From a virus, in the IMG/VR virus record IMGVR_UViG_3300042332_000393, positions 1 to 33,415 of that record: a DNA stretch of 33,415 nt, one strand, 5' to 3'. Position 1 is the stretch's first letter. Every line of letters begins with the position of its first letter. Shown here piece after piece: positions 23,526 to 33,415 of the stretch. Position numbers and translations under genes: made by a program. The notes under the pieces were generated by a model. That model saw nothing but the letters and a program-made list of their open reading frames with translations, did no database searches and was not told the DNA's origin.

Positions 23526-24173
23526 ATGGCGAGCCAGGTTTCTATCGTCAATCGCGCCCTGGTGAAACTGGGCGAGTCCACCGTGCTGCTGCTCACGGAC
23601 AACGTGAAGCAGGCCCGCACCATGGCCGCGATCTTCGACGACACCCGGGACGCCGAGCTGCGCGCCAATCGCTGGAAATTCGCCATCAAGCGCGCCCAGC
23701 TGTCGGCGCTCGTCGACGCCCCGGCGTTCGGCTACAGCCAGCAGTACGAGCTGCCAGACGACTATCTGGCCATGGTGCAGGTCGGCGAGTTCTACCTGCG
23801 CACCGGCATGAAGCAGCGCGCACCCTGGTCGATCGAGGGGCGGCGCCTGCTGACCGATATGTCGGCCCCGCTTTCCATCCGCTACGTCAGCCGGGTGACC
23901 GACACGTCGCAGTTCGACGCGCTGTTCGTCGACGCGCTGGCCTGCCGCCTCGCCATGGAAGCCTGCGAGGCGCTTACCCAGTCCGACACCAAGTTCCAGC
24001 GCCTGGCCGCCATGCGCAAGGAGTCGCTCGACCAGGCCCTGCGCGTGGACGCCATCGAGAACCCGCCCGACGAGCTGCCCGACGGCACGTGGCTGGAAAG
24101 CCGCACGGGCCTGTCGGTGCGCATCGGCAGCCCTGACGGCGGCCTGTGGCCCTCCGGCGTCGAGGTGCTCTGA
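23526..24173 (+). CDS. Tail tubular protein A (T7 gp11-like)
   Basis: This 215-residue protein is the adaptor joining portal to tail nozzle. It starts QVSIVNRALVKLGES and contains the family pattern ARTMAAIFDDTRDAELRANRW (about residues 29-49), then YELPDDYL. Length agrees with gp11-like proteins (~200). It sits directly upstream of tail tubular B, whose ATG overlaps its stop by one base. It has its own candidate promoter. Confidence 0.9.
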   Translation: MASQVSIVNRALVKLGESTVLLLTDNVKQARTMAAIFDDTRDAELRANRWKFAIKRAQLSALVDAPAFGYSQQYELPDDYLAMVQVGEFYLRTGMKQRAPWSIEGRRLLTDMSAPLSIRYVSRVTDTSQFDALFVDALACRLAMEACEALTQSDTKFQRLAAMRKESLDQALRVDAIENPPDELPDGTWLESRTGLSVRIGSPDGGLWPSGVEVL

Positions 24174-26404
24174 TGGGGAAGGCCAGCCCAATCCTCGGGA
24201 ACCTGAACGCGGGCGAGTTCTCGCCCATGCTCGACGGGCGCGTCGACTACGCGAAGTACCCGAACGCCGCCAGCCGCCTCGAAAACTTCATCCCCACGGT
24301 GCAGGGCCCGCACGTGCGCCGGGCCGGCACGCGCTTCGTGGCCGAGGTGAAAAACTCCGCCGCCGGGCGCCCGCTGCTGCACGTGTTCGAGTACAGCGTC
24401 GACCAGGCTTACCAGGTCGAGTTCGGCAACTTCTACGCCCGGTTCTACACGTGGGACGCCGTGACCAAGGTGCGCGGCCGTCTGGAGGTCGCAGGCGTTC
24501 CCGTCGAGGTGGTGACCCCTTACGCGATCGGCGACCTCTACAACGCCGACGGCACGCCGCGGCTTCGTTTTGCGCAGTCGGGCGACTTCCTCTACATCGC
24601 CCACCCGTCCTACCAGCAGCGCATCCTGCAGCGCACCAGCGCGACCTCGTTCACCCTGACCACGTTCGAAGGCAAGGGCGGCCCCTGGAAGTCGCTGAAC
24701 GACACGGCCATCACGGTTTACGCCAGCGCCGAGACGGGGACCGGCATCACGCTCACGGCGTCGTCGGCCATCTTCCAGGCCGGCCACGTCGGCGCGCTGT
24801 TCTACCTTGAGTCCAAGGACGTGAACGCAATCCCTGCTTGGGAACCTGGCCACACTGTGGTGCTCGGCGAGCGCGCAAGATCCGACGGCAAAACATACGA
24901 GGCCCTGAACGCAGCAAAGACTGGCGTCAATCGCCCAGTGCACACAGAAGGCGCCTTGTACGACGGAAACCCCACAAGCGTGCAGTGGCAGTACCGCGAC
25001 GCCGGCTATGGCTACGTGAAAATCACCGGGTTCACCTCCAGCACGGTGGTGACCGCCGACGTGATCGACCGGCTGCCCTCGCAGGTGGTCGGCGCCGGCA
25101 ACCCGACGACGCGCTGGGCCCATGCCGCATGGTCGGCCGTCGAGGGCTGGCCGTCGCAGGTGGCGTTCTTCCGCGAGCGCATGTGGTGGGCCCGCGGCCA
25201 GGAAGTCTGGGCCAGCGTGTCGGCCGATTTCACCGACTACGCGCCGCGCACGTTCAACACCGTCACGGCCGACGCCGGGTTCACGGTGCAGATCAACTCG
25301 GGCAAGATCAACGCCGTGCAGTGGCTGGCGCCCGACCGCGACCTGCTGGTCGGCACGGCCGGCAGCGAGTTCGCCATCGGCGAGCTGACCAACGGCGAGC
25401 CGCTCGGGCCCAACAACCGGCGCTCGAAGCTGGCCAGCGAGTTCGGGTCGAAGGCCATCCCGCCGATCAAGAACGGCCGCTCGTCGCTGTTTATCCAGCG
25501 CTCTGGCCTGGTGGCGCGCGAGACGTTCTACGAGTTCGCTGGCGACGGCTACGAGTCCACGGAAACCACGGTCGAGGCCGAGCACATTACCCGCACCGGC
25601 CTGGTCGACATGGTGTTCGCACCCGAGCCGACGCCCGTGGTGTGGTGTATTCGCAACGATGGCCTGCTGATCGGGTTCACCTGGAACAACGAGCAGAAGG
25701 TTCGCGGCTGGCACCGGCACCCGATCGGCGGGAACGGCGTCGTCGAATCCATCTCGGTGATGCAGGCCGCCGAGGGCGACCGTCACGAACTCTGGATGAT
25801 CGTGCGCCGGGTGATCAACGGCGTGACGAAACGGTACGTCGAGTACATGGAACGCCCCTGGCGCGAAGGCGATACCCAGGCGTCGCAGTTCTACGTCGAC
25901 TCGGGCCTGACCTACAGCGGCGCGGCTGCCACCACGATCTCGGGGCTCGGCCACCTGGAGGGGCAGACCGTCGACGTGCTGACCGATGGCGCGCCGCACC
26001 CGCAGCGCGTGGTGACGGGTGGCCAGATCACCCTGCAGCGCGCGGCGTCCGTGGTGCAGGTCGGCCTGCCGTGCCCGTGCGTCTACCGCTCGATGCGCAT
26101 GGACGTGGGCGCGGCTGACGGCACGGCGCAGGGCAAGACCAAGCGCATTCACAAGGCCGTGCTGCGCTTCCTGAACACGGGCGGCGGCAGCTACGGCGGC
26201 AGCGAGAACGCGCTTGACGACCTGCAGTTCCGCACCGCAGCCGACCCCATGGGCGCGCCCGTGCCGCTCTACACGGGCGACAAGGTGGTGAGCTGGCCAG
26301 ACGGCTACACGACCGACGCGTACATGATTTACACGAATGATCAGCCTACTGCTGTGACTCTGGTAGCATTGATGCCCCAGATACACACAATGGATCAGAG
26401 GTAA
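24173..26404 (+). CDS. Tail tubular protein B (T7 gp12-like nozzle)
   Basis: This 743-residue protein begins GKASPILGNLNAGEFSPMLDGR, RVDYAKYPNAASRLENF and VQGPHVRRAGTRFV, the standard start of T7 gp12-type nozzle proteins; the C-terminal part also has YPHP-type surface features. I choose the ATG at 24173 over an in-frame start at 24146 because the conserved N-terminus begins there. Residues ~220-285 (GKTYEALNAAKTG, then WQYRDAGYGYVKIT) look like an inserted carbohydrate-binding-like module with less GC-rich codons. The 3' end from about 26325 is unusually AT-rich beside the HNH gene. Confidence 0.9.
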   Translation: MGKASPILGNLNAGEFSPMLDGRVDYAKYPNAASRLENFIPTVQGPHVRRAGTRFVAEVKNSAAGRPLLHVFEYSVDQAYQVEFGNFYARFYTWDAVTKVRGRLEVAGVPVEVVTPYAIGDLYNADGTPRLRFAQSGDFLYIAHPSYQQRILQRTSATSFTLTTFEGKGGPWKSLNDTAITVYASAETGTGITLTASSAIFQAGHVGALFYLESKDVNAIPAWEPGHTVVLGERARSDGKTYEALNAAKTGVNRPVHTEGALYDGNPTSVQWQYRDAGYGYVKITGFTSSTVVTADVIDRLPSQVVGAGNPTTRWAHAAWSAVEGWPSQVAFFRERMWWARGQEVWASVSADFTDYAPRTFNTVTADAGFTVQINSGKINAVQWLAPDRDLLVGTAGSEFAIGELTNGEPLGPNNRRSKLASEFGSKAIPPIKNGRSSLFIQRSGLVARETFYEFAGDGYESTETTVEAEHITRTGLVDMVFAPEPTPVVWCIRNDGLLIGFTWNNEQKVRGWHRHPIGGNGVVESISVMQAAEGDRHELWMIVRRVINGVTKRYVEYMERPWREGDTQASQFYVDSGLTYSGAAATTISGLGHLEGQTVDVLTDGAPHPQRVVTGGQITLQRAASVVQVGLPCPCVYRSMRMDVGAADGTAQGKTKRIHKAVLRFLNTGGGSYGGSENALDDLQFRTAADPMGAPVPLYTGDKVVSWPDGYTTDAYMIYTNDQPTAVTLVALMPQIHTMDQR
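26364..26369 (+). promoter_or_regulatory. Possible extended -10 box before the HNH gene
   Basis: TGGTAGCAT within the end of tail tubular B contains TAGCAT (26364-26369) with TG upstream. The hexamer matches the -10 at 11007. No convincing -35 is seen. It could drive the HNH gene separately. Confidence 0.25.
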
Positions 26405-26406
26405 TC

Positions 26407-26946
26407 ATGAGCCGCCAAACAAGCCAGGAAGCAAAGAGCCAGCGAATTCGATTGAGCGACGATGAGTTGCTTGCTCGCGTCCATGCCAAACTGTCGCTAA
26501 ATAGCAACGGGTGCTCTATATGGCATGGCGGAATTGGCCGTGGCGGCTACGGGCTTGTGTGGAACGGGGTTAGGAACATGGCTGTTCACCGGGCCGTGTA
26601 CGAGGCGACGCACAAAGTTCGCCTTACTCGCTGGCAGTTTGTTTGCCATGCATGCGATGTGCCGGCCTGCGCAAACATCAATCACTTGTGGCTCGGAACG
26701 CCAAAAGAAAACACGGCCGACATGGACAAAAAAGGTCGTCGGATCATCACTGAGAAGAACCGCGCAGTTCTTGCAAACAAGCCCGCGAAGGGGAGCGCCA
26801 ACAACATGGCGAAGCTTTCTGACGCCCAGGTCAATGAGATTCTGACATCACCTATTGCGGCAAAAGAAATTGCGCAAAAGTTCGGAGTCACAAGGAACCA
26901 CGTCTACAAGATCCGCAACGGCTGGCGGTGGAGCCACGCCCGATGA
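26407..26946 (+). CDS. HNH homing endonuclease with HTH tail
   Basis: This 179-residue free-standing homing endonuclease has GCSIWHG (35-41), AVHRAVYE (His61), CHAC (80-83), ACANINHLWLGT (second cysteine 88, His93) and KENTADMDKKGR, a full HNH_3-type active site. Residues ~135-175 are a helix-turn-helix (KEIAQKFGVTRNHVYKIRNG) for target choice. It is much less GC-rich than its neighbours, a sign of recent transfer. It sits two bases after tail tubular B and overlaps the gp13-like gene by four bases, leaving the operon intact. It presumably cuts phages lacking it so that it spreads. Confidence 0.9.
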   Translation: MSRQTSQEAKSQRIRLSDDELLARVHAKLSLNSNGCSIWHGGIGRGGYGLVWNGVRNMAVHRAVYEATHKVRLTRWQFVCHACDVPACANINHLWLGTPKENTADMDKKGRRIITEKNRAVLANKPAKGSANNMAKLSDAQVNEILTSPIAAKEIAQKFGVTRNHVYKIRNGWRWSHAR

Positions 26947-27374
26947 TCGTCACCGCCTTTCGCCCCGTGCACCTCGCCCGGCTTCGTCTGCAGCCGGCGC
27001 AGGCCGCCCTGTCGGCCGAGTTCCTGAAACCCGGCTACACCGACATGCTGCGCGCCGGCGGGCCGTGTTTCACCGCGCTGGCTGACGGCGAGGTGATCGC
27101 CTGCGCCGGCGTAGCCGAGGTCTGGCAGGGCAGGGCGCTGGCGTGGGCGCTGATCAGCGATGCGGCCGGCCGGCACATGATCGCGCTGCATCGCGCCGTG
27201 GCGGGGTTCCTGACGCAAGCCCCGTATCGGAGAATCGAGGCCACGGTCGACGCCGGGTTCGACGCTGCCCACCGCTGGATCAGGCTGCTGGGGTTCCAAT
27301 GCGAAACCCCCGACGGCATGCGGCAGTACAACCCGAACGGCGGCGACGCCTTCCTGTATTCGAGGACCAAATAA
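26943..27374 (+). CDS. T7 gp13-like internal virion/acetyltransferase-fold protein
   Basis: The 143-residue product resembles the phage gp13 (DUF2833) family: MIVTAFRPVHLARLRLQPAQ, then CFTALADGEVIACAGV, ALAWALISDAAGRHM and a C-terminus with RWIRLLGFQCETPDGM. The strand-helix layout is GNAT-like, but enzyme activity is doubtful. In T7, gp13 is needed to assemble infective particles. I take the ATG at 26943, overlapping the HNH stop, with a GGTGGAG ribosome site inside the HNH end. Its stop overlaps the next start. Confidence 0.75.
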   Translation: MIVTAFRPVHLARLRLQPAQAALSAEFLKPGYTDMLRAGGPCFTALADGEVIACAGVAEVWQGRALAWALISDAAGRHMIALHRAVAGFLTQAPYRRIEATVDAGFDAAHRWIRLLGFQCETPDGMRQYNPNGGDAFLYSRTK

Positions 27375-27886
27375 TGGCAATGCTTGCACCCTTCGCCCTG
27401 CCGCTCATGGCGGCATCTGCCGGCATCAGCGCTGTCGGCGCGATCCGCTCCGGCAACATGCAGAAGGCCGCGGCCGATCGTGAGGCGCTGGGCCTGCAGC
27501 AGGCGGCCGATCAGGCGATGGCTGACGGCATGGCCGAGGACGATCGTTTCCGCACGCAGACGCGCCAGGCGATCGGCGCGCAACTGGCGTCCAGCGCCGA
27601 GGCCGGCGCCGGTCTGAACGAGGACCAGCTGCGCCAGTCTATCTACGACGCAGAGCTGGATTCGGCGGCGATCCGCTACGGCGTGTCGAACAAGGCCCGC
27701 GCGATGCGTGACCAGGCCGTGGTTGGCCGCTGGCAGGGACGGCAGGCGCGCACGGCGGGCTACCTGAACGCGGCCGGCACCCTGCTGAACGCGGGCGCGA
27801 CGGCGGGCATGTACGGCATGAAGGGCGGCAAAACCGGCGGCAGCGGTGGCGGCTTGGCTGGAGACGGTCGCGGATCTGGCGGCTGA
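27374..27886 (+). CDS. Internal virion protein (gp14-like)
   Basis: The 170-residue product begins with a hydrophobic segment (LAPFALPLMAASAGISAVGA) and continues as alanine-rich helix (KAAADREALGLQQAADQAMA; KARAMRDQAVVGRWQGRQAR), then a glycine-rich tail. This matches T7 gp14-type ejected core proteins that enter the outer membrane. It starts at an ATG overlapping the previous stop (TAATG) and precedes the transglycosylase gene, the same order as gp14-gp15-gp16. Confidence 0.75.
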   Translation: MAMLAPFALPLMAASAGISAVGAIRSGNMQKAAADREALGLQQAADQAMADGMAEDDRFRTQTRQAIGAQLASSAEAGAGLNEDQLRQSIYDAELDSAAIRYGVSNKARAMRDQAVVGRWQGRQARTAGYLNAAGTLLNAGATAGMYGMKGGKTGGSGGGLAGDGRGSGG

Positions 27887-27899
27887 ACAAGGAAAACAC

Positions 27900-30491
27900 A
27901 TGGCAACGATCCCGGTCTACCAGCGCCGCGTGGCGCAAGATGGCGGCGCACCCGTCACCCGCGTGAGCGGCGCCGACCCCATTGGCAACGCCCTGCAGGG
28001 CATCGGCCAGGTGGGTATGCGCGCATCCGAGGGCTTGATGGCCGAGAACCTTCGGCAGCAGGAGGAGGCGCGACGCAAGGCCGAGAAGGAGGCCGAGGAT
28101 CTGGCCGCGGTGCAGGTGTCGAACCTGCTGTCGCAGGCTGACGTTTTTTGGCAACAGCGCGAGGACGAGCGACGCCGCGGCTGGAAGGTCGGCGACCCCG
28201 ACATGCGCGAGAGCATCGGCAAGGAGTTCGACGATTGGGTCGGGAAGTCCAAGGGCCAGCTCAGCACGCCCGCGGCGCAGAAGTATTTTCTGCAGCACGC
28301 GGCCGGCATGCGCGCCAAGCTGCAAACCGGCGCCTACTCGTTCCAGCGCAAAGCCGAGTTCGAGAAGCTGGACGCCGAGACGAAGGCGGCCGAGGACGCC
28401 GACGAGATTAACGTCGCGGCCAACTGGAGCGACGAGAAGGCGGTGAACGCCATCATCGCCCGCCGCGCCGAGACGATCATGGCCCGCACCGACCTGGGCG
28501 AGGGCGACAAGGTAAAGGAGGTCACCCGACTTACCCGGCGCATGACCCTCGCCCGCGAGCGCGCCTACGTCGAGAACGACCCCGCCGGCTGGCTGCGCAT
28601 GAACGGCAGCCGCCGCGCAGCACCCGGCACGCCGACGGGCGAGGCCCCGTTCGAGTCGCTGTTCGCGGCCGTCGTCGGCCAGGAGTCTGGCGGCGTGCAC
28701 ACCACGAAGGACGGCGGCCTGCTGACCTCGCCCGCCGGCGCGCAGGGCGTGACGCAGGTGATGCCCAAGACCGGCACCGACCCTGGCTATGGCGTGAAGC
28801 CGCTGCAGAACCAGAGCCGCGAGGAGTACCTGCGTTTCGGCCGCGACTACCTGCAGGCCATGATCAAGGAGTTCGACGGCGACCAGGCCAAGGCGTTGGC
28901 CGCATACAACGCCGGCCCTGGCCGTGTGATGGACGCCGTGCGCTCCAAGGGCGCCGACTGGCTGTCGGTGATGCCGCAGGAAACCAAGGACTACGTGGCC
29001 AAGATCGGCGGCAAGGTGGGCATGCAGCCCGCAGCCGAGCCGCAGCCCGGCGAGGTGGATCTGCAGCCCAAGGGCATGGCCGCGCGCCTCGACCCCGACA
29101 GCGTGTACCAGCTCCGCAACCTGGCCGAAACCCGCGTCAGCCAGGCCACCGCTCAACTGCGCGCCGAGGGCCAGCGCCTGGTGACCGACCTCATGGCTGG
29201 CCACAAGGACGGCAAGATCGAGGCCCAGCCGCTTGGCCGCGAGTATTTCGACCGGGCGTTCGGCGCCGAGGGCGACCGGCTGTACCGCGACTATCAGGAG
29301 TCGCGCGTCATGGGCGCCGACATCGCCTCGTACAAGGCCAAGCCCGTCGACCAGATCGCTGCCGAAATCACGGCCAGCGAGCCGCAGCCGGGCGAGGGCT
29401 ACGCTGCAGCCGACGCGCGCCAGTCTGCCCGCAAGCAAGCCGCGGCCCAAGTGTTGCAGCAGCGCAACGCTGACCCGGTGAGCTACGCAACTTCGACGAG
29501 CCCGCGCGCGGCCGCACTGGCGCAGCAGCTCCAGACCGAGAACGACCCAGCTCGCCGCGCCGCCCTGAACGCGCAGTTTATCGAGGCGAACCTGGCCGAG
29601 CAGCAGCGCCTCGGCGTGCAGAACCAGCGCGTGCTGACGCCGGCTCAGGCTGACCGCTGGCAGACCATGGCCATGAGCCTGCAGCGTCCCGAGGACTCGG
29701 CGAACCTGATCGCCACGCTCGAAACCGAGTACGGCAAGTTTTTTCCGCGCGTGTTCAGCGAGCTGGCGCGCGAAGGCAAGATTTCTGGCGAGTTGCTGGT
29801 GATCCCGAACCTGCCGTCGCAGGCGGCGCGCTTAGCCGTTTCTCGACTGGCTCGGGTCAAGGAGTCGGAGCTGGCTGCAGCCGTGGCGCCTGATCAGGTC
29901 AAGGCTGTCAAAGATGCGGTCACTGGCGTGATGGAGGAGTACGCGCGAACTGTGCCAGTCATCAACACGCAGTCGATTGGGTCAATCAACAGCTACGAAA
30001 CGCTCATGCGCAAGTTCGCACTGGAGCAGGTCAAGGACGGCGCATCGGTGAGTGACGCCCGCAAGCGCGCGACCTCTTTGCTGTTCGGCCACTACGAGTT
30101 TCAGGACACCGTGCGAGTACCCAAGGGCGTGGACTACAGCGCCAGCAAGCGGGCCATGAACTTGCTGCTGCGCGATCTGCAATCTGTGGATGTGCTCCCC
30201 GACGAAATGGGCGCCCGCAAGCCTGACGAAGCGCGCAAGTACTACACCGACATCGTGAAATCGCGCCCGCTGTGGCACACGACCGACGACGACGAGGGCG
30301 TGCAGCTGTTCGTCGTGCGCGAGAACGGCACCAAGGCCCCGGTCACCGTGGGCGGGAAGCCCGTGCGCAAGACGTGGATTGAGTTGCAGGCGATGGCCGC
30401 CTCCAAGCGCAAAGCCGACAACGCGGCCGCGATTTACAACGACACCCTGCCGCTGGGCCGTCAGCCTGGCCGAGCCGGCGGCGAGTTCTAA
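27900..30491 (+). CDS. Internal virion protein with lytic transglycosylase domain
   Basis: At 863 residues, this is a large ejected protein. Residues ~1-200 are charged helices; residues ~250-370 hold a soluble lytic transglycosylase domain: catalytic Glu in GQESGG (Glu262), SPAGAQGVTQVMPKTG, and ALAAYNAGPGRV. It would cleave peptidoglycan to let DNA pass. The C-terminal ~450 residues are long helices. I choose the ATG at 27900 after AAGGAAA; the in-frame start at 27846 lies inside the previous gene. It combines in one protein functions that T7 places in gp15 and gp16. Confidence 0.9.
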   Translation: MATIPVYQRRVAQDGGAPVTRVSGADPIGNALQGIGQVGMRASEGLMAENLRQQEEARRKAEKEAEDLAAVQVSNLLSQADVFWQQREDERRRGWKVGDPDMRESIGKEFDDWVGKSKGQLSTPAAQKYFLQHAAGMRAKLQTGAYSFQRKAEFEKLDAETKAAEDADEINVAANWSDEKAVNAIIARRAETIMARTDLGEGDKVKEVTRLTRRMTLARERAYVENDPAGWLRMNGSRRAAPGTPTGEAPFESLFAAVVGQESGGVHTTKDGGLLTSPAGAQGVTQVMPKTGTDPGYGVKPLQNQSREEYLRFGRDYLQAMIKEFDGDQAKALAAYNAGPGRVMDAVRSKGADWLSVMPQETKDYVAKIGGKVGMQPAAEPQPGEVDLQPKGMAARLDPDSVYQLRNLAETRVSQATAQLRAEGQRLVTDLMAGHKDGKIEAQPLGREYFDRAFGAEGDRLYRDYQESRVMGADIASYKAKPVDQIAAEITASEPQPGEGYAAADARQSARKQAAAQVLQQRNADPVSYATSTSPRAAALAQQLQTENDPARRAALNAQFIEANLAEQQRLGVQNQRVLTPAQADRWQTMAMSLQRPEDSANLIATLETEYGKFFPRVFSELAREGKISGELLVIPNLPSQAARLAVSRLARVKESELAAAVAPDQVKAVKDAVTGVMEEYARTVPVINTQSIGSINSYETLMRKFALEQVKDGASVSDARKRATSLLFGHYEFQDTVRVPKGVDYSASKRAMNLLLRDLQSVDVLPDEMGARKPDEARKYYTDIVKSRPLWHTTDDDEGVQLFVVRENGTKAPVTVGGKPVRKTWIELQAMAASKRKADNAAAIYNDTLPLGRQPGRAGGEF

Positions 30492-30517: not shown

Positions 30518-33415
30518 ATGCCCCAGTACCTCGGCACAGACGACTCGCTTACCAGCGTTAGCACCCTGCAAGACTTTGCCCCGACCGGCTGGCAGAAAAT
30601 GAACGCCGCCGTGCGCGAGGCGTGGCTGGAGTCTTACGGGCCGGTCGGCCTTGACTACCTGCGCAGCGTGAATGCCGACGACAAGCGCAAGATCACGGCG
30701 GCCGAGGCCGAGTCGATGCGCATGGGCATCGGCGGCGGCGCCCGGGTTTCGATCAAGCCCAAGGACAACGAGTACACCGCAGGGCAGTGGACGACGATCC
30801 TAGAGCGCCAGCGCGAGCTGGCCGCCATCAAAGACGTGCGCGAGCGTACCCCTTGGGAGCTTGGGTCTGTGCTGCGCGGCGGCGCGATGTTTGGCGCCGG
30901 CATCGTGGACCCGATCAACCTCGCCACGGCGTTCGTGCCATGGACGAAAAGTGTCAGCGCATTGCGCAGCGTGCGCGCAGCCGCGGCTTCCGAGTCTTTC
31001 CTGACCCGCACGGGCGCCCGGGCCATCTTGGGCGGGGCCGACGCCGGCATCTCGACGGCCGTGCTGGAGCCGCTTTTCTACGCTGGCCGGCAAGCCCTTG
31101 GCGACGACTACACGGCCATGGACTCCCTGGCCAACATCGCGTTCGGCACGGCGTTCGGCGGCGGCCTGCACGTAATCGGCGGCAGCGTTGGCGATGCGTT
31201 CTCTGGCCGGTTCCGTCGCGCTGCGCCCGCTGTCGAGGCCCCGCCGATGGCCGAGACGGGCGCCCTGAACGACACCCCGACCGTGGTCGATATGGCGCCG
31301 GTGCGCACCATTACGCCCGAGGCCGAGCGCGTTGGCATGCCAGAGGTGAAGGGCGAACCCGAGGCCCGCATCGAGAACGTGCCCGAGAAGGTGCAGAAGG
31401 CTGTCGACGAGCAGATCGCCAAGATCCAGCAAGCCGGCGAGAACGCTGCAGCCCGGGCTGTCGATGCTGCGCCCGCGAGCGCTGCGCCGACCCCCGACAC
31501 GCTGCTGACGATCCCGGCGCCGGGCAAGCGCAACGACCTGCTGGCTGCCATCAAGCGGGCAGGGGGCATCTCGACCGCGCTGGCCCGCGAGGCGACCGGC
31601 GAGAACGGCATGCGTCTGAACCGCTCGCTGCCCGGCCTGGTGCGCAAGGAGGGCGGCCTGCTGCAGTACGACCAGGCTGCGCAGCTTCTGGCCGACGACG
31701 GGTTTCTGACGCCCGGCATCGACCCGCTGAGCTACGAAGCCGCAGCCGAGGCCGAGGATCTGATCAGCCGCGCCTTGAACGGCGAGCGCATCCTGCGCTG
31801 GGAGGATCGGATGGCCGAGGACATGGCCGCCCGTGACATGGCTGCGCTCGACCCGGCGCCGGCCACCGACGTGATGCAATCGGTCGACCCCGAAACCCGC
31901 GAGGCCACCCTGCGCGCCGCCGTGGCGCAAGCCGCTGACGGCCGCGCCGTGGACGTTGAGCCGATCGTCGGCCTGGACGAGTCGCTGGGCACGCACACGA
32001 TCGACGACGTGGCAGGCGCTGCCGACCGGAATTTCGCGCCCGAGTCGCAGCCGCTGGCCGACTTCGAGGTGTCGCGCGCTGTGGACGAGCGCAACGCCGC
32101 AGCCCCGAAATGGGATTTGCTGGAAGCCGCCGACCAGGCGCTGATCGAGGCCGATGCGCTGCTGGCTGATACGGTGATGGCGGGGGATGAGGCGTATAAG
32201 TACAGCCGGCAAAAAGCGTTCCATGGCACGCCGCATCGAGGGATTGCGAAATTCTCGACCGACAAGATCGGCACGGGGGAGGGCGCGCAGGCTTACGGGT
32301 GGGGGTTGTACTTTGCGTCGATGCGCGACATTGCTGAACACTACCGCCGAAAGCTGACCGGAGTTGACGGAAAACCAATCCAAATCGACGACAGTGGACT
32401 TATCCCTCGCCAGATTGGCTCATCTGTTGTTGACGCATTGGATCGTGTAGATCGTGAAATCACGATCCGAAAAACAAACATTGAGAACGCAAAAGACAAC
32501 CCGGACGTAATTTCGCCGGATCAAGTCAAACGATGGGAGGCTGAGTTGCGCGCCTACGAGGCCCGGCGCGTTGAAATCGACCAGGCTGGCCAACTCTACC
32601 AAGTCGAAATCCCCACCGACGACACCATGCTGCTGTGGGACAAGCCGCTTAGTGAGCAGCCGGAGGGGGTGAGGAAGGCGATTCTGGCGACGCAGTGGAT
32701 CGGCGCAAGTGAGCCGGGCTTGATGCAGATGACGGGTGAAAAGCTCTATCACGCCATGTCGCGGCGCGACGGATCTCGCATCTTTATCGGCGATGACAAG
32801 TTCACCAGCAATTACTTGGCCGGCCTCGGCATCAAGGGCATCAAATACCTCGACGGCACCAGCCGCGGCGCAGGCGACGGCTCGTTTAACTACGTGGTTT
32901 TCAGTGGCGACGACGTATCAATCACCGCCACCTACTACAGCCGAGGCATCACCGGCCAACCCGCCGCCGACCTACTAAACGACGCCATCCGCACCGCCTT
33001 CGGCGACTCCACCGACGCCCTGCTCGCATCTGGCCGCGTCAAGATCGTCGCATCAGTAACCGACATCCCCGACGGCCCGCACCCCGGCGATGTGAAGGCC
33101 GCAACCGCGCCCGATGGCACGGTCTACATCGTGGCCGACAACGTGAGCCCCGCCGAAGCCAAGGGCATGCTGCTGCATGAGGTCGGCGTGCACGTAGGCA
33201 TGGAGGCCATGGTCGGGCCCGAGGTGTTCGGCTCGCTGCTGGCCGAGCTTGATGCCGCCATCCTGGCCGGCGAGTCATGGGCGCAGAAAGCCCGCGCAGC
33301 CGTGCCTGCTGACACGCCGGCCTATCTGGTGCACGAGGAGCAGCTGGCCTATCTGGTGCAGAACGCGCCCGAGCTGCCGATCGTGCAGCGGATCATCGCG
33401 GCGGTGCGCGCCTGG
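30518..33415 (+). CDS. Giant polyvalent virion protein: ADP-ribosyltransferase-like and zincin-like domains (partial, right edge)
   Basis: The frame runs from the ATG at 30518 (GGAG upstream) to the window end without a stop, at least 966 residues. Residues ~110-230 are glycine/alanine-rich and hydrophobic (GGAMFGAGIVDPINL; LANIAFGTAFGGGLHVIGG), like membrane-active ejected proteins. Residues ~326-435 include IKRAGGIST, GLVRKEGG and DQAAQLLADDGF, an unnamed polyvalent-protein module. From residue 568, FHGTPHRGIAKF, IGTGEGAQAYGWGLYFA and the later NYVVF fit phage ART-PolyVal ADP-ribosyltransferases. HEVGVH (887-892) with the downstream EEQLAYL is a zincin-like metallopeptidase, its histidines one residue further apart than canonical HExxH. 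Function is inferred: injection with the genome to modify host proteins. Confidence 0.85.
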   Translation, partial: MPQYLGTDDSLTSVSTLQDFAPTGWQKMNAAVREAWLESYGPVGLDYLRSVNADDKRKITAAEAESMRMGIGGGARVSIKPKDNEYTAGQWTTILERQRELAAIKDVRERTPWELGSVLRGGAMFGAGIVDPINLATAFVPWTKSVSALRSVRAAAASESFLTRTGARAILGGADAGISTAVLEPLFYAGRQALGDDYTAMDSLANIAFGTAFGGGLHVIGGSVGDAFSGRFRRAAPAVEAPPMAETGALNDTPTVVDMAPVRTITPEAERVGMPEVKGEPEARIENVPEKVQKAVDEQIAKIQQAGENAAARAVDAAPASAAPTPDTLLTIPAPGKRNDLLAAIKRAGGISTALAREATGENGMRLNRSLPGLVRKEGGLLQYDQAAQLLADDGFLTPGIDPLSYEAAAEAEDLISRALNGERILRWEDRMAEDMAARDMAALDPAPATDVMQSVDPETREATLRAAVAQAADGRAVDVEPIVGLDESLGTHTIDDVAGAADRNFAPESQPLADFEVSRAVDERNAAAPKWDLLEAADQALIEADALLADTVMAGDEAYKYSRQKAFHGTPHRGIAKFSTDKIGTGEGAQAYGWGLYFASMRDIAEHYRRKLTGVDGKPIQIDDSGLIPRQIGSSVVDALDRVDREITIRKTNIENAKDNPDVISPDQVKRWEAELRAYEARRVEIDQAGQLYQVEIPTDDTMLLWDKPLSEQPEGVRKAILATQWIGASEPGLMQMTGEKLYHAMSRRDGSRIFIGDDKFTSNYLAGLGIKGIKYLDGTSRGAGDGSFNYVVFSGDDVSITATYYSRGITGQPAADLLNDAIRTAFGDSTDALLASGRVKIVASVTDIPDGPHPGDVKAATAPDGTVYIVADNVSPAEAKGMLLHEVGVHVGMEAMVGPEVFGSLLAELDAAILAGESWAQKARAAVPADTPAYLVHEEQLAYLVQNAPELPIVQRIIAAVRAW

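Follow-up and report, generated by a model that had tools for sequence, protein, structure and literature searches.

The last gene of the window (the whole 33,415-nucleotide stretch of viral DNA analysed here) probably codes for the final ejection protein of a short-tailed phage, in which two ejection-protein genes have been fused with effector cargo, to be delivered at infection. It is a polyvalent protein, with an ADP-ribosyltransferase (ART) domain and a zincin-like metallopeptidase in one chain, and with ParB, PBECR5 and ART domains in its relatives. Record IMGVR_UViG_3300042332_000393 is 33415 bases in full, and this giant gene, on the plus strand, is truncated by the contig end: from an ATG at 30518, shortly preceded by GGAG, 966 codons are open and stop-free up to 33415. 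Complete relatives of the 966 aa visible here are 1850-2914 aa long and, judging from them, the conserved C-terminal virion module of ~890 aa that the window gene lacks would lie beyond the contig.

Upstream of this gene, and on the same strand, are genes for a tail tubular protein (phrog_394, 23526-24173), a tail nozzle protein (phrog_376 / Phage_nozzle, 24146-26404), an internal virion protein (phrog_418, 27143-27886) and an ejection-type protein with an SLT transglycosylase domain (27846-30491), the latter in the position of epsilon15 gp15 and BPP-1 Bbp11. The transglycosylase, internal virion protein and nozzle genes were confirmed here; an earlier sequence-only reading had placed the giant gene after the transglycosylase in a virion operon. 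A gene for an HNH endonuclease (26407-26946) sits between the nozzle and internal virion protein genes and is likely a homing-type insertion within the operon; leaving it aside, the gene order in the window is that of epsilon15 gp11-gp17 and BPP-1 bbp14-bbp10. The operon had also been called BPP-1-like, which holds for its order, BPP-1/epsilon15-like, but does not extend to the gene itself, in which no homology to Bbp10 is detectable: whole-gene homology was considered and rejected, with no match of any frame module by HMM or profile comparison. L002 (BK063671.1, 4540-10464) also shares the operon order of the window, including a giant ART gene that contains an HExxH motif, and its recorded host is Methanomicrobiales; an archaeal host for an operon of this type would be unexpected.

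Relatives were collected by scanning with the ART-zincin part of the protein, which brought in 80 loci, while the full-length window protein as query returned none; the same gene at the same place of the operon was found at about 20 loci in all, including those from a later scan. Comparison of these loci defined a frame in which four modules (N, hinge, zincin and C) are conserved, with three slots of variable content, the frame modules being ~40-78% identical across the about 20 syntenic loci. In the window, the N module (aa 1-245, 30518-31252) has homologues that are genes of their own in virion operons, for instance Ab31 ORF15 (phrog_3003), and is followed by slot 1 (aa 246-448, 31253-31861) in a version of ~200 aa, the hinge (aa 449-565, 31862-32212), which terminates in KYSR, slot 2 (aa 565-806, 32210-32935), occupied by an ART of the ART-PolyVal type, and the zincin (aa 817-966, 32966-33415), all on the plus strand. 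What had been described as a polyvalent-type module ahead of the ART is in fact a variable slot plus a conserved hinge.

More distant relatives carry the N module in a gene of its own, of ~560-680 codons (930 in L113), followed by a gene of ~840-885 codons for the C module. Such separate, adjacent N and C genes were found in Pseudomonas phage Ab31, where they are the neighbouring virion genes ORF15 and ORF16, and in L107, L111-L119, L122 and L132; the only relative that one scan of genome contigs yielded was of the split type, in Marinobacterium jannaschii. Matches of the N module are with Ab31 ORF15 and, at a weak level, with 'internal virion proteins' of Pelagibacter, and the C module of the complete relatives matches Ab31 ORF16 (E 8e-254), the virion structural protein family phrog_684 (E 5e-186) and epsilon15 gp17 (E 8e-47), as well as SPN1S and Pelagibacter internal virion proteins. 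Since N and C are separate virion genes in the split relatives, the window gene looks like a fusion, and the origin of the family that these comparisons most likely point to is the joining of two ejection-protein genes, with zincin and cargo put between them; we infer that the direction was fusion and not splitting. L082 (9212-13700), where the N module runs directly into an ART and C has its own gene, may represent an intermediate stage of the fusion.

The ART domain proposed from sequence alone has been borne out by family matches in the alignment, invariant residues and the comparison of its AlphaFold2 model with models of PolyVal ARTs. The Pfam family ART-PolyVal matched the whole window protein with E 4e-4, PF18760 (ART-PolyVal) gave the isolated domain 24.2 bits, short of the curated cut-off (31.2), and matches to this family were obtained for 26 of the 28 aligned ART sequences. 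Invariant positions across this alignment are the H and G of FHG and the Y of GLYFA, with H569 and Y598 among them, and the GIKGIKYLD block and most of the GTGEGAQAYG block are conserved. The model, which is confident (mean pLDDT 84), places H569 in strand 1 (model residues 3-10) and Y598 in strand 2 (36-39), and its matches among predicted viral models (best E 2e-18) include several named ART-PolyVal. No solved ART in the PDB was matched in the fold search, a result probably due to the dominance of a helical insert (model residues 76-127) in this comparison; PDB sequence matches of the ART profile were rejected, as they look like coiled-coil matches to the same insert. The third catalytic residue is uncertain, because the window domain has FSGDD (aa 795-799) where most relatives have FDD, at the strand-5 Asp position. 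FSGDD is common to the closest ARTs, located in other phages (L017-L020, L023, L028-L031).

The zincin-like domain, an HEXXXH variant, had been proposed from HEVGVH and a downstream EEQLAYL, and the conservation of these motifs and the predicted order of the fold support it. Among 19 sequences HEVGVH (aa 887-892, with H887, E888 and H892) is invariant and EEQLAYL (940-946) nearly so, with the EE pair, E940/E941, invariant. The model (mean pLDDT 83) shows helix, three strands, HEXXXH helix and Glu helix in the expected order, with HEVGVH and EE in predicted helices 72-93 and 129-143; zincins are among the top ranks when it is compared with the PDB, at a best E of 0.8 that is not significant, and PDB sequence searches with the N, C, ART and zincin profiles gave nothing credible. 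Iyer et al. (2017) list the HEXXXH form in a group of polyvalent proteins (PMC5512222). The zincin is present in every complete fused member of the family, also in those with slot 2 empty (L007, L016).

The content of the slots varies widely. Slot 1 holds a DdrB-ParB domain in L007, L012, L021, L033 and L008, where the slot is ~390-440 aa long, and in the window it is a shorter segment in which no domain could be named. Slot 2 is empty (9-17 aa) in L007, L016, L106 and L099, and holds a PBECR5 nuclease in L012, a ParB_N-like domain, below the cut-off, in L033, and ART-PolyVal domains in L009, L011, L014 and L021, besides the ART of the window; other domains occupy it at further loci, and the labels GNATx, LPD and miniART given to L013, L022, L027, L024 and L015 are readings of the sequence and not database matches. 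Slot 3, downstream of the zincin, is occupied by ART-PolyVal or unknown domains at some loci and is short at others. In L008 (7954-9858), L010 (8120-10180), L025 (8384-10195) and L091 (6647-8968), slot 2 is filled by a much larger ART-like segment of 600-770 aa; two or three colinear pieces of it match the ART profile, and it has Q for the first catalytic His (WQGT), so that these are possibly altered or inactive ARTs. A large slot-2 cargo with an FPTIADRTAAG-like stretch and no Pfam match is shared by L013 (7316-10030), L022 (8165-10105) and L027 (8096-10033).

The cargo of slot 2 does not follow the tree of the frame and is exchanged. When slot-2 labels were placed on a tree built from the N, hinge and zincin modules, 13 changes were required, versus 13.8 for shuffled labels, and 67 of the 200 shuffles were as low as the observed value. 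Close frame pairs with different cargo are L021/L025, with near-identical frames, L015/L016, L022/L024 and the window with L007. In the latter, a sister locus, YSRQQAYHGTQHRG is followed directly by the zincin start (GDQAAELLDSALRKAFG), i.e. about the first ten residues of an ART with the remainder gone, and this remnant is a deletion scar. In the window, GC content over the ART is 57%, versus 68-71% in the flanking frame, with GC3 falling too, and it is among the lowest 1% of equal-length windows of the contig (9 of 1308, the windows overlapping).

Nearly every junction in the family is marked by a tripeptide, [FY][SA]R, which occurs 110 times in 22 family sequences, versus 40 expected from composition. 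All of the 19 sequences have it where the hinge ends and 18 of 19 where C begins, and in 14 of the 16 filled slots it lies a short distance ahead of the zincin, with a density at junctions of 3-8 per 100 aa, versus 0.02-0.11 within the interiors of N, hinge, C, slot 1 and slot 2. In the window, YSR brackets the ART exactly, at aa 562-564 (32201-32209) ahead of it and at aa 807-809 (32936-32944) at the boundary with the zincin, both on the plus strand. The junction serine is encoded by AGC as well as by TCN codons, which indicates a constraint on the protein and disfavours an origin of the tripeptide in recombination at the DNA level. A set of 39 other ART polyvalent proteins shows no enrichment (47 occurrences versus 49 expected), and the R form is absent in the zincin relatives from other frames, so a motif general to polyvalent proteins is not supported for that form. 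Several zincin relatives in other frames have KYSV or RYSV ~10 residues before the zincin, and the looser [KR][FY]S is enriched in nine zincin relatives (16 versus 7 expected, some rows being near copies). The [FY][SA]R junctions are candidate sites for processing by the zincin, the rival reading being that they are conserved frame edges.

Altogether, we favour a model in which an N-type gene and a neighbouring epsilon15 gp17-type gene would have been fused, with effector cargo inserted between them. The protein would be packed in the capsid with the other internal proteins and threaded through portal and nozzle, helping to build the channel, and the cargo would enter the host cytoplasm before any phage gene is expressed; there, the slot-2 ART of the window most likely ADP-ribosylates a host protein, and this cargo may be freed through cleavage of the chain by the embedded HEXXXH zincin, at the [FY][SA]R junctions. 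We infer the activity and target of the ART, as well as the cleavage by the zincin and its sites. Packaging and ejection are suggested by homology: the window itself shows the N module and the operon order, and the C module is present only in relatives. Delivery with the DNA, as suggested by the sequence-only reading, is in this way well supported by the homologies of N and C and by the ejection-protein operon; no record of virion proteomics or biochemistry was found for any member of the family. A further step, that the protein is a podophage polyprotein with standard cargo ports, whose own zincin cuts the [FY][SA]R junctions and frees both the channel-forming ends and the effectors, is tentative and in our opinion rather doubtful; that the N4 virion RNA polymerase has a zincin and is packaged unprocessed (PMC5512222) counts against a cleavage step.

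The gene could also be an ordinary polyvalent protein, in which ART and zincin are accreted effectors, the zincin attacks host proteins and the junctions are linker maintained by homology of the frame, a reading to be taken seriously even if we lean against it. ART and zincin were described together by Iyer et al. (2017), who considered several roles for the zincin, including attack on host proteins (PMC5512222), and giant ART+zincin genes with other frames are found in operons that share this nozzle gene. An ART-bearing gene was found at eleven other loci with the nozzle gene of the window, nine of them with HExxH in the same chain (two of the nine being near-copies). The combination of domains that had been highlighted as deserving study in this genome is therefore recurrent, and already reported. 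The lack of generality of the tripeptide across polyvalent proteins is also in keeping with an ordinary polyvalent protein. However, the zincin is invariant in complete fused members, even with slot 2 empty, whereas effectors vary, and the same tripeptide is placed at three to four non-homologous joints, both of which count against this reading.

Doubts could also be raised about whether the ART is functional or a decayed or inactive passenger, retained as a spacer or in the process of being lost. The replacement of FDD by FSGDD at the strand-5 acid, the loss of nearly the whole ART in L007 and the Q in place of the first His in the ART-like slots of L008, L010, L025 and L091 would fit with this, but it seems unlikely for the window, where the His, the Tyr and the GTGEGAQAYG and GIKGIKYLD blocks are fully kept in an open frame and FSGDD is also present in the closest relatives in other phages. 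Much less probable still is a late-expressed host-takeover factor, absent from the virion and merely located in the virion operon: direct proteomics were not found, which leaves room for it, but the N and C modules are by homology proteins of virion operons and occupy the positions that the final two ejection-type genes have in the operon.

If the preferred reading of a fused, cargo-bearing ejection protein is true, the family would show the way in which exchangeable proteins are loaded into the injection apparatus of a virus, at sites that can be read in the sequence. It would also give the zincin-processing proposal of 2017 a direct test with named candidate sites, and the about 20 cargo variants on one carrier constitute a natural collection to be compared against host defences.

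Among known systems, BPP-1 Bbp10 resembles the window gene in being the product of a giant gene after the transglycosylase gene and in having a zincin-like motif, HESGH; because of this motif, bbp10 (L135, 3188-9346) may itself encode a polyvalent protein. A crystallin beta/gamma motif protein of Podoviridae sp. ctlpi2, named like Bbp10, matches the ART model. Epsilon15 gp17 and Ab31 ORF15 and ORF16 share homologous modules after the transglycosylase, the N match being to Ab31 only, with none in epsilon15. However, the Ab31 proteins are encoded by two genes without a zincin or cargo of the window type, while the window family is fused, with several hundred to more than 1500 aa extra in between. 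Epsilon15 gene numbers in a review of ejection proteins (PMC8954989) do not match the sizes in the current record, and its table was not relied on. The N4 virion RNA polymerase, gp50, is likewise giant and ejected; its N-terminus likely spans the membrane, and the chain also contains an enzyme, an HExxH domain and a large C-terminal part that is helical (PMC12633501). It differs in that its cargo is an RNA polymerase and it is packaged unprocessed. The packaging of ARTs in phage heads has been recognised as a theme (PMC9503650), and T4 Alt is also an ART delivered from the head at infection, but it belongs to the R-S-E clade, outside the polyvalent proteins (PMC5512222). A close parallel is with the polyvalent proteins of Iyer et al. 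(2017), for which injection was predicted and zincin-mediated release proposed and which, as the window family, combine an H-Y-D ART, an HEXXXH zincin and DdrB-ParB and PBECR domains (PMC5512222); the window family differs in that its cargo occupies fixed slots within two fused podophage ejection proteins, where a tripeptide recurs at the junctions. No description of the fused frame or of the junction motif was found in the literature and, as far as we could find, injected polyvalent proteins with ART and zincin were known, whereas the fused ejection-protein carrier, the fixed slots with measured exchange of cargo and the junction motif are new.
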